NCBI GenBank assembly: GCA_002772325.1
Contig: PCSL01000089.1
Span: forward strand, 316 to 9,078
Direction of reading: 5' to 3'
DNA length: 8,763 bases
Source of the DNA: Chloroflexi bacterium CG23_combo_of_CG06-09_8_20_14_all_45_10
GTDB taxonomy: Bacteria > Chloroflexota > Dehalococcoidia > GIF9 > AB-539-J10
The notes under the pieces are model-generated. The model saw nothing but the letters and a program-made list of their open reading frames with translations, ran no database searches and was not told the origin of the DNA. Below, piece after piece: positions 4,500-6,789 of this stretch; positions within the stretch are counted from its first letter, which is position 1, and the number at the start of each line of letters is the position of its first letter. The position numbers and the translations under genes are program-made.

Positions 4500-4918
4500 A
4501 TGGAAATTTCTGAATGGAAAGAGCATCTTGAAATGGAGCGCAAAGCGAAGGATAGATTTTTCGCTCAACATCGGCACTCTCCAATACTCGCCGAAGATCG
4601 TATAAAATTTCAAGGGCTCAATTATTATCCTCCTGACTCAGCCTATAGGTTCGAACTCGAGCTGCATGAACATGAAGAAAAAAAGGTGCAACATCAGGCA
4701 AGGAAACATATAGTGCAGGACGATATATTGATCTCAAGCCTGGGAGGCATCTTACAATTGAGGGGAAGTGGGTTCTCGACTTTAACAAGGCATATAATCC
4801 GTGGTGCGTCTATAGCAAAGATTATACTTGTCCCTTCGTGCCCAAGGAAAATTGGCTTGAAGTGCCAATATGTAGGGGCGAGCATGCTCGCCCCTACTAC
4901 CATTGGAAAAGAGGATAA
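4500..4918 (+). pseudogene. DUF1684 family protein, frameshifted and internally deleted
   Basis: The N-terminal part in one frame (ATG 4500 to about 4684) has the family start: EWKEHLEMERKAKDRFF, HSPI, FQGLNYYPPDSAYRFELELHEHEE. The conserved C-terminal part continues in the -1 frame from 4685 to TAA 4916-4918: ATSGKETYSAGRYIDL, GKWVLDFNKAYNPWCVYS, DYTCPFVPKENWLEVPI. The break is at a run of seven A (4678-4684). From memory of the family, about 45 residues that normally separate the two parts are missing, so an out-of-frame internal deletion is the simplest explanation. Near the end, the 26-bp palindrome (4872-4897) replaces the expected AGEK-type tail with RGEHARPY. The frame-2 stop overlaps the ATG of the next gene by one base (TAATG). 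If the first frame is not shifted, it reads nonsense to 4925. DUF1684 proteins have no firmly known function. Confidence 0.75.
4872..4897. repeat. 26-bp perfect palindrome, copy 1
   Basis: GTAGGGGCGAGCA followed directly by its exact reverse complement. An identical copy lies at 6272-6297. This copy sits in the last part of the DUF1684 pseudogene; in that gene's C-terminal frame it is read as RGEHARPY. It probably belongs to a dispersed REP- or MITE-like palindromic family, judged by the exact repeat and its intragenic insertion. Confidence 0.85.
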
Positions 4919-6111
4919 TGGCTAGCAGCTTAAGGAAGGAGAACCGATTGAACCAACAAGTTGTGGAACAAATAACGGCACTTAAGCTAAATGAAAGTCG
5001 TTGTGCCAATTGTTCTCTGTGCGCCTCTCTCTGTCCTTTCGAGGCAATCAAGGGGGATCCAGAGACGAGGAAGATGGTCCTGGAGATAGAGAAATGCCAG
5101 GTATGTGGTATCTGCTACTCCAGTTGTCCCGCCAAGGCCATTGATATCTTCTACTACGATTTGGTCTCACTGACCAGGTACCTTGAAAGTGCCAGACAGG
5201 AGTATGACTCTGACACACTGGTCATTGCGTGTAAAGGGAGCAGTCCAGATTTCGACGCGGTAGGAAATCTGTTTGGAGTCTCCAAGTTCATTCCTCTATC
5301 CGTCCCATGTGTGGGGCGTCTCTCCGAGGATGTCTTTCTGAAAGCTATTGCTAGCCTGAGCATTAACAAGATATACATTCTTGCTTGCGATGAGAACTAC
5401 TGCCGGTTCGAGAAAGGAAGCGCTCTCAATGGGCGAAGAGTCACTGTCTTAAACCTGCTGCTAGAGCAACTTGGCTTTGGCAAAGACATCATTATTCTGA
5501 AGAGAAACAGCCTTAAAGTGAAAGCCGATAGGAACAAATGTATCAGGTGCGGCACCTGCGTATTTTATTGCCCCTACGAAGCTGTTAAACTAGATGGTAC
5601 CGAGCCAGCCAGCTTTGACCTGGAGCTATGTCAGGGGTGCGGTATATGTGTAGCTATGTGCCCTGCCATGGCCTTAGAACTCGAGGGCTGGGAAAGGGAA
5701 CGCCTTTCTGCTTTGATTTCGGAGCTATGCTCACAGATGCAGCAGCCGAAGATACTGGTATTCCGCTGCCAGTGGTCAGCATTTCCCTTGCTTGATGGTG
5801 ATCTCGAGCCAAATGTTCGTTTGATAGATTTGCCCTGTGCTGGGAGAGTGGACACGTTCCATATCCTAGAAGCTTTTGCACAGGGCGTGGGTGGTGTTAT
5901 GGTGGTTGCCTGCCCTGCGGAGGAGTGCAAGTTGAAAGAAGGGAGTAAGGAAGCTTATTGGGGGATACTGAAGTTAAAGGGAAAATTAGACCAAATTGGC
6001 CTCGGGGAAAGACTTCATTTCTGCTTCGTCGCGCCGAGGTATCCGCAAGATTTTGCCCAAGAACTGAGGCAATTCAAGGAAAAACTGGAGACCACTGCTG
6101 AAGGAGATTAA
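4918..6111 (+). CDS. Tandem ferredoxin-MvhD fusion (hydrogenase iron-sulfur subunit-like)
   Basis: A 397-residue protein made of two copies of the same pair of domains. Unit 1 has two [4Fe-4S] sites (C29/32/35/39 and C60/63/66/70), then an MvhD-like domain (about 100-200) with C105, VPCVGR (C131) and ACDENYC (C157, C162). Unit 2 has two [4Fe-4S] sites (C208/211/214/218 and C238/241/244/248), then an MvhD-like domain (about 278-385) with FRCQWS (C284), LPCAGR (C307) and ACPAEEC (C332, C337). In both MvhD parts the second cysteine of the usual CxxC is serine. There is no FAD domain, so it is not HdrA itself. It would be an electron wire carrying at least four [4Fe-4S] clusters. ATG 4918 overlaps the preceding stop, but the in-frame TTG 4948 has a much better ribosome site (GGAAGGAG, 4934-4941, spacing six) and may be the real start. 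Confidence 0.85.
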   Translation: MASSLRKENRLNQQVVEQITALKLNESRCANCSLCASLCPFEAIKGDPETRKMVLEIEKCQVCGICYSSCPAKAIDIFYYDLVSLTRYLESARQEYDSDTLVIACKGSSPDFDAVGNLFGVSKFIPLSVPCVGRLSEDVFLKAIASLSINKIYILACDENYCRFEKGSALNGRRVTVLNLLLEQLGFGKDIIILKRNSLKVKADRNKCIRCGTCVFYCPYEAVKLDGTEPASFDLELCQGCGICVAMCPAMALELEGWERERLSALISELCSQMQQPKILVFRCQWSAFPLLDGDLEPNVRLIDLPCAGRVDTFHILEAFAQGVGGVMVVACPAEECKLKEGSKEAYWGILKLKGKLDQIGLGERLHFCFVAPRYPQDFAQELRQFKEKLETTAEGD

Positions 6112-6114
6112 GAA

Positions 6115-6789
6115 GTGATTGTAACTGAGCTAAAACCCTTAGAGGAGATCTTGGAATCTGTCTCTCCTTACTCCACAGTCCTGATTGCCGGCTGTGACGG
6201 CTGTACTCAACCTCCACGGAGTATAAAGGAAGCTGAAAATTTAAGTCGGCTCCTCGAACTTGGAGGAAGGCGTAGGGGCGAGCATGCTCGCCCCTACTTC
6301 AAGGTGACCACTATCCCCAAACAATGCGACTCACACTTGGTGGCTACTGCACTCAGGGAACAGCTCCAAGGCATTGAGGCTGTCCTTTCCCTGGGTTGTG
6401 GAGCTGGAGTGCAGACCATAGTGGGAGTGTTTCCTGACCTCGTTGTCCTTCCTGCACAGAACACTCTTTTCATCGGGATGGAGGACAGAGAAGGACATCT
6501 CCTGGAAGAAAGATGTGCTGCCTGTGGGGATTGCCTACTTGGTCTGACCGGTGGCATTTGCCCGGTTACGAGGTGCGCCAAGGGTTTGCTCAATGGTCCC
6601 TGCGGTGGTTGTAGCAACGGAAAATGTGAGGTTGACCCGGAGAAGGATTGTGCCTGGTATCTTATCATCAAGCAACTGGAGAAACAGGGCAGGTTAGATA
6701 CTCTGGAGGAAATTCGCCCTCCTAGAGATTTCCAAACAGTGATAAGACCGGGAAGAATTATAGAACGCTTAGAGGAGGTGAAGCAATGA
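6115..6789 (+). CDS. metV: MetV-like methylene-tetrahydrofolate reductase C-terminal domain protein
   Basis: A 224-residue cysteine-rich protein of the MetV family, the small subunit of MetVF-type methylene-tetrahydrofolate reductases in acetogens; related domains occur at the C-terminus of fused reductases. Visible motifs are AGCDGCTQPP (C27, C30), C71, LGCGAGVQ (C95), then the metal-binding end: CAACGDC (C134/137/140), ICPVTRCAKGLLNGPCGGC (C149, C154, C163, C166), C171 and C179. It starts with GTG three bases after the previous stop, behind GAAGGAG, and overlaps the next gene by four bases (ATGA). A 26-bp palindrome (6272-6297) is inserted in frame, adding RGEHARPY (54-61) between LLELGG and KVTTIPKQC. 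No metF is nearby, so it may serve another electron-transfer complex or a distant MetF. The family is well supported; the partner is unknown. Confidence 0.82.
   Translation: MIVTELKPLEEILESVSPYSTVLIAGCDGCTQPPRSIKEAENLSRLLELGGRRRGEHARPYFKVTTIPKQCDSHLVATALREQLQGIEAVLSLGCGAGVQTIVGVFPDLVVLPAQNTLFIGMEDREGHLLEERCAACGDCLLGLTGGICPVTRCAKGLLNGPCGGCSNGKCEVDPEKDCAWYLIIKQLEKQGRLDTLEEIRPPRDFQTVIRPGRIIERLEEVKQ
6272..6297. repeat. 26-bp perfect palindrome, copy 2
   Basis: Identical to the palindrome at 4872-4897 (half-site GTAGGGGCGAGCA). Here it lies inside the metV-like gene and keeps the reading frame, encoding RGEHARPY as in copy 1. The sequences flanking the two copies differ, so they look like separate insertions of one element rather than a larger duplication. 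Confidence 0.88.

Follow-up and report, generated by a model that had tools for sequence, protein, structure and literature searches.

The closest described counterparts of the repeat presented here are the 'double foot' REPs, which go with TnpA-REP subclass 2.4 (Quentin et al. 2018, PMC6006769). According to the text of that article, they carry GTAG at one end, the reverse complement CTAC at the other end and a hairpin in between. A REP within a transposase gene is already in print there, so that palindromes inside a transposase gene are ruled out as a novelty. The GTAG-tagged REPs treated by Di Nocera et al. 2013 (PMC3733652) are, as the text of this article has it, palindromes of 20-40 bp with an unpaired GTAG tag at one end; they are mostly intergenic, and REPs inside other genes are described as well, some of them in frame in conserved genes. 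The spread and integration of REPs are called unsolved in the text of a further article (PMC8266576), and the running text of the REP literature consulted, figures and supplements aside, mentions neither the 26-mer described below nor a replacement at REP sites.

The window, i.e. the whole stretch of DNA that was analysed (8,763 nucleotides), covers positions 316-9078 of one contig in a draft genome; the 119 contigs of this draft add up to 1.0 Mb, with 73% completeness and 3.46% contamination. The window contains the 26-mer GTAGGGGCGAGCATGCTCGCCCCTAC twice, and each copy is its own reverse complement (Table 1). The first-pass annotation had reported two identical perfect palindromes, and both their positions and their self-complementarity were verified. 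The copies are located 1.4 kb apart in the same gene cluster, with genes for FlpD, a molybdopterin oxidoreductase, an iron-sulfur/FlpD protein, an FrhB/FdhB-like protein and a thioredoxin as neighbours. If up to two mismatches are allowed, the half-site GTAGGGGCGAGCA has four matches in the window, compared to a mean of 0.15 and a maximum of 3 in shuffled sequences (n=200). The single-stranded 26-mer has a predicted folding energy of -12.3 kcal/mol (z -6.5), which was equalled by none of 200 shuffles, and in the predicted hairpin the GTAG end pairs with the CTAC end. An Rfam scan of the window gave no match at gathering scores.

Table 1 Features of the window around the two palindromes
Feature	Positions	Strand	Remarks
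DUF1684 gene, N-terminal remnant	4500..4689	+	residues 1-70 match DUF1684 proteins; likeness stops about here
DUF1684 gene, C-terminal remnant, other frame	4703..4918	+	contains copy 1; alignment with 22/25 relatives covering the end
Palindrome copy 1	4872..4897	.	3' end of DUF1684 remnant, directly upstream of next gene; exact repeat, perfect palindrome, hairpin z -6.5
Iron-sulfur/FlpD-domain gene	4903..6111	+	sits between the copies; neighbour, outside the element
MetV-like gene, 224 aa	6115..6789	+	C-terminal PF12225 domain; open across copy 2
Palindrome copy 2	6272..6297	.	in frame (RGEHARPY) within open MetV-like gene; identical to copy 1; 58/58 aligned relatives 2 residues shorter

Both copies had initially been regarded as coding sequence read as RGEHARPY. 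Such a reading, (x)RGEHARPY, is indeed possible for both in a plus-strand frame of a recognisable protein, but the host gene of copy 1 is a broken DUF1684 remnant (window 4500-4918), in which about 50 residues are gone and the frame changes between the two parts, upstream of the palindrome. Since this gene is a frame-shifted remnant, the frame of copy 1 carries little weight. The gene around copy 2, whose name 'MetV-like' is taken from the first-pass annotation, is uninterrupted as claimed there, its frame running through the palindrome. It was also correctly pointed out that one reading frame of the palindrome gives a TAG stop and that surviving copies might be selected for frame: the copies in open genes do not use the TAG frame, as expected if readable copies survive. 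The view that the 26-mer is a dispersed palindromic repeat that occurs in frame within genes is supported, copies in ffh and an ATPase gene of a second genus (see below) showing the same.

Compared to the double-foot REPs of subclass 2.4, as far as the text of PMC6006769 describes them, the 26-mer shares the GTAG and CTAC ends and the hairpin, but the window's genome shows no subclass 2.4 gene, and its two copies are located in other genes rather than in or beside tnpA. The GTAG-tagged REPs in the text of PMC3733652 are similar in length, in the GTAG sequence and in some in-frame cases, whereas the 26-mer is paired at both ends and its copies are found within reading frames. None of the features of classical GTAG REPs, namely an unpaired tag, a mostly intergenic position and a high copy number, was found for the 26-mer. 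Among the Rickettsia palindromic elements, which can be set beside the 26-mer by description alone and belong to another host, RPE-1 is described as longer, and RPE-4 and RPE-6 correspond to other REP families according to the text of PMC3733652. The likeness to these elements that had been suggested at first holds for the in-frame palindromic stretches within open genes (MetV-like, ffh and an ATPase gene, see below), but there is no special likeness, the build being that of a GTAG double-foot REP. Small dispersed repeats of Nostoc (Elhai et al. 2008) are reportedly mobile and 21-27 nt long; they have other sequences and hosts and are likened to the 26-mer by description alone.

The window's draft genome holds two copies of the 26-mer, both on one 9-kb contig. 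Beyond these, neither GTAGGGGCGAGCATGCTCGCCCCTAC nor the looser pattern GTAGGGGC-N4..30-GCCCCTAC was found in it, so that the further copies for which the first-pass annotation had proposed a count were not found there; a half-site search with one mismatch gave one extra stray match. No copies were detected in two other genomes of the same genus, and 152 kb of sequence sampled from 20 further contigs in the window's genome (one of them masked) contained 13 weaker palindromes, none of them built like the 26-mer. When the GTDB species genomes were scanned for the exact 26-mer, five loci were obtained, four in Dehalococcoidia bacterium CG2_30_46_9 and one in Serratia proteamaculans UME734, while IMG/VR gave 0 stretches. 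CG2_30_46_9 (a draft, 82% complete) represents a second genus within the window's family, and its copies lie in ffh (463 aa), in an AAA-type ATPase gene (496 aa), in a trypsin-like peptidase frame (281 aa), which is shorter than the frames of its closest relatives, and in a DUF3160 fragment (116 aa). Three of them are read as VGASMLAPT and one as GRGEHARPY. In the two genomes together, all six copies are located within reading frames, and three of the genes look intact. The Serratia copy (L064 2058-2083), from an unrelated phylum, is exact and single, and no frame longer than 96 aa spans it. Although two copies are far below the usual REP family, it is likely that the element belongs among the REPs.

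Related genes without the palindrome do exist, as the first-pass annotation had presumed, but they do not show the clean 26-bp boundary of an insertion with defined ends. In 14 MetV-like relatives with 82-88% identity, and likewise in all 58 aligned, the site is merely two residues shorter (GGRHRGKKFN--FKV in a relative, GGRRRGEHARPYFKV in the window), and at the DUF1684 site, where 22 of 25 relatives cover the end, one of these has VPICAGEKNYS opposite VPICRGEHARPYYH. At both window sites the net gain is thus 6 nt, i.e. 26 bp stand in place of about 20 bp according to the protein alignments, and since the gain is 6 nt and not 26, 'inserted' is too simple a word. The ffh gene of CG2_30_46_9 exceeds its closest relative (89%) by 18 nt (SHLVASV------RPPSM vs SHLVGASMLAPTVQPSSM). 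There the palindrome separates the N-terminal helical domain from the GTPase domain, and 47 of 48 aligned Ffh relatives cover the site, with a gap of six residues in 46 and of eight in one. For the ATPase gene (L065) and the peptidase frame (L063), the high variability of the stretch precludes fixing the limits of the site. At the three comparable sites, the native residues share a longest common subsequence of 3.1-3.4 with the peptide of the element, compared to 1.5-1.9 for random peptides, which reach at least 3 with a chance of 0.09-0.23 per site. A resemblance of the native sites to the element's peptide beforehand is therefore suggestive only.

Of 294 relatives, 85 possess palindromes with the build GTAGGGGC-N4..30-GCCCCTAC and a variable core, the maximum being 189 in one genome, whereas the reversed pattern occurs 0-2 times. 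When one copy was fetched per genome, 17 of 29 were 28 bp long, and the cores are typical of the genome, the same sequences being shared within it. Matches to NF047646 (RAYT) were found in 26 of the 27 genomes with at least 10 copies and in 79 of the 267 others, and copy number correlates with these matches (Spearman 0.52; 0.48 after genome size), both comparisons being made among related genomes with kinship ignored. The best-scoring NF047646 RAYTs were rejected as movers, as the full palindrome by the strict pattern occurs in 0/20 of their loci and a strong palindrome after the HUH motif in 0/17. Among 20 lower-scoring RAYT loci, a palindrome was found in the gene, in frame right behind MPNHxHG, in eight cases and anywhere in the stretch in 12.

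One transposase subfamily is represented by an alignment of 14 members (A1) with the motifs MPNHxHG, WQRNY and YIxxNP. It is present in 76 of the 294 genomes, among them 25 of the 27 with at least 10 copies vs 51 of the 267 others (again related genomes, kinship ignored). Of 70 subfamily loci 68 were read, and 41 of these have a strong palindrome after the HUH motif, compared to 1/68 before the motif, 2/340 in shuffles and 0/17 for the best-scoring RAYTs. The full GTAGGGGC...GCCCCTAC form occurs in 24 of 59 distinct subfamily genes, in one open frame in 14 and in the other in 10; its absence from the TAG frame (0) is what open genes require. Subclass 2.4 is characterised by NH[IFV]H, WQ and YIxNNP motifs and by a variable insert between HuH and Y in which REPs lie in frame, and the subfamily agrees with this in the motifs of A1 and in its palindromes after HUH. 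Its best match is 4er8, a TnpA-REP bound to a REP hairpin, both in the fold comparison (E 2.1e-8) and in the profile comparison (E 2.6e-5), in keeping with a TnpA-REP fold, and 12 of 14 members match Y1_Tnp. Structure prediction (mean pLDDT 80) places the insert in a loop of low confidence that connects the HUH strand to a helix.

Among 186 listed copies from 15 genomes, 14 are inside subfamily genes and 15 within 1 kb of them, and of 21 palindromes carried by such genes, 11 have an exact counterpart among the dispersed copies in the same genome, compared to 2.4 by permutation (p 0.0002), both counts being based on partial lists. One subfamily gene (G190) is flanked by one perfect copy on each side. 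In a tree of 58 subfamily proteins, calculated with the insert region excluded and of low support, the state of the insert is scattered (26 changes vs 31.2 when shuffled, as low in 4 of 200). The surroundings of three of five matches in plasmid records showed the HUH pattern in Spirosoma only, and the palindrome was absent there, so that the plasmids provide no named example. Across the class, palindromes of the 26-mer's build go with this TnpA-REP/RAYT subfamily. The associated RAYT transposase that the first-pass annotation had proposed to look for is hence borne out by the class-wide co-occurrence of RAYT genes and palindromes in relatives, but not in the window's genome itself. Neither a subfamily gene nor an NF047646 match was found in this 73% complete draft, and the same is true for CG2_30_46_9 (82% draft), the other holder of the 26-mer. 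Within the window's family (52 genomes), the six genomes with palindromes are disjoint from the six with a subfamily match and from the 10 with an NF047646 match.

We consider it probable that the two palindromes are copies of one 26-bp repeat with the double-foot REP build (GTAG...CTAC), likely placed by a TnpA-REP/RAYT HUH transposase of the subclass 2.4 type, each apparently replacing about 20 bp, an exchange deduced from protein alignments with relatives. The transposase would now be lost, absent or unassembled in the window's genome. It might have moved the copies as single-stranded hairpins, and the sites would have been filled via replacement in one step. In working genes, the survivors would be the copies in TAG-free frames and in tolerant places such as loops, linkers and tails; a benefit for the host would not be required. 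Double-foot REPs would thereby extend to the small genomes of a Dehalococcoidia family, altering proteins rather than spacers. As copies lie in conserved genes (ffh, MetV-like), comparable empty sites are available, from which the moving unit, the replaced bases and the surviving frames can be read directly. A possible novelty could be the manner of entry, in which similar native bases are replaced. It is conceivable, although we regard it as doubtful, that double-foot REPs colonise genes by replacement: the single-stranded hairpin would anneal in a replication gap to native sequence similar to its arms and be copied in for 8-20 native bases, which would add no more than 2-6 residues to the protein. 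If this were true, the same 26-mer could turn up in genes that are unrelated, with no frameshift and even after the transposase has gone, and REPs would act as a natural form of oligonucleotide recombination by which loops in ordinary proteins are rewritten.

A serious rival to replacement is insertion plus trimming, in which the same REP-type element of about 26 bp inserted cleanly, and minor deletions that followed in tolerant loops brought the gene back into frame by removing about 20 (or 8) adjacent bases. Since 26 is not a multiple of 3, a clean insertion needs such a compensating loss, and the losses to be assumed at the three sites (20, 20 and 8 nt) are each 2 modulo 3; the sites are also situated in loops, linkers or tails of variable length. 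However, trimming would have had to arrive at the same net gain of 6 nt at two unrelated sites, and the native residues are somewhat similar to the element's peptide, although this point is weak, so that we judge this course of events possible but rather unlikely. Formation of each palindrome in place, by a template switch during replication on a native half-site similar to GTAGGGGC, could explain the small net gains and is in line with half-site-like native codons in relatives (e.g. AGG GGG AAA in L005). We nevertheless think it very unlikely, as core sequences are shared within genomes and the occurrence of one and the same 26-mer at six unrelated places, spread over two genera, demands copying and not six separate events.

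The position of both copies in one gene cluster, only 1.4 kb apart, and their strong predicted hairpins might also suggest that they serve the window's operon as operators or terminators and have been retained for regulation. This is hardly credible, because the gene that contains copy 2 is open, the other copies are found in ffh, the ATPase gene and other unrelated frames, and the palindrome is absent from the MetV-like relatives (58/58). It is similarly improbable that the copies are an artefact of misassembly or of a contig from another genome. The fragmented state of the draft (119 contigs, 3.46% contamination), the presence of both copies on a single 9-kb contig and its G+C content of 0.472, just above the 0.41-0.47 of the unmasked sampled contigs, would fit such an artefact. 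In contrast, the MetV-like protein cluster (90% identity) comprises nine sequences on 17 contigs, and the tetranucleotide distance of the contig to the genome mean (0.190) is within the range of the genome's contigs (0.140-0.405), with 0.181 to CG2_30_46_9, so that the distances fit either bin. It is plausible that the contig belongs to the window's genome bin, and neither misassembly nor misbinning would alter the nature of the element.

Some minor observations were made in the course of the analysis. At a contig end in one relative (G007:C60:9-749, L006), a MetV-like gene is matched in part on one strand and in part on the other, which indicates either an inverted duplication or an assembly fault. 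CG2_30_46_9 possesses a second palindromic repeat, TCCTGAA..TTCAGGA, with 15 copies in the stretches read, several of them in frame within long frames (VLNQVQD and PESSSG peptides); it was not seen in the sampled contigs of the window's genome. A further likely intragenic case is a 28-bp palindrome of the same build as the 26-mer in a 527-aa open frame of another relative (L033 1501-1528, G104), where it is read as VGAHGHTPLQ.
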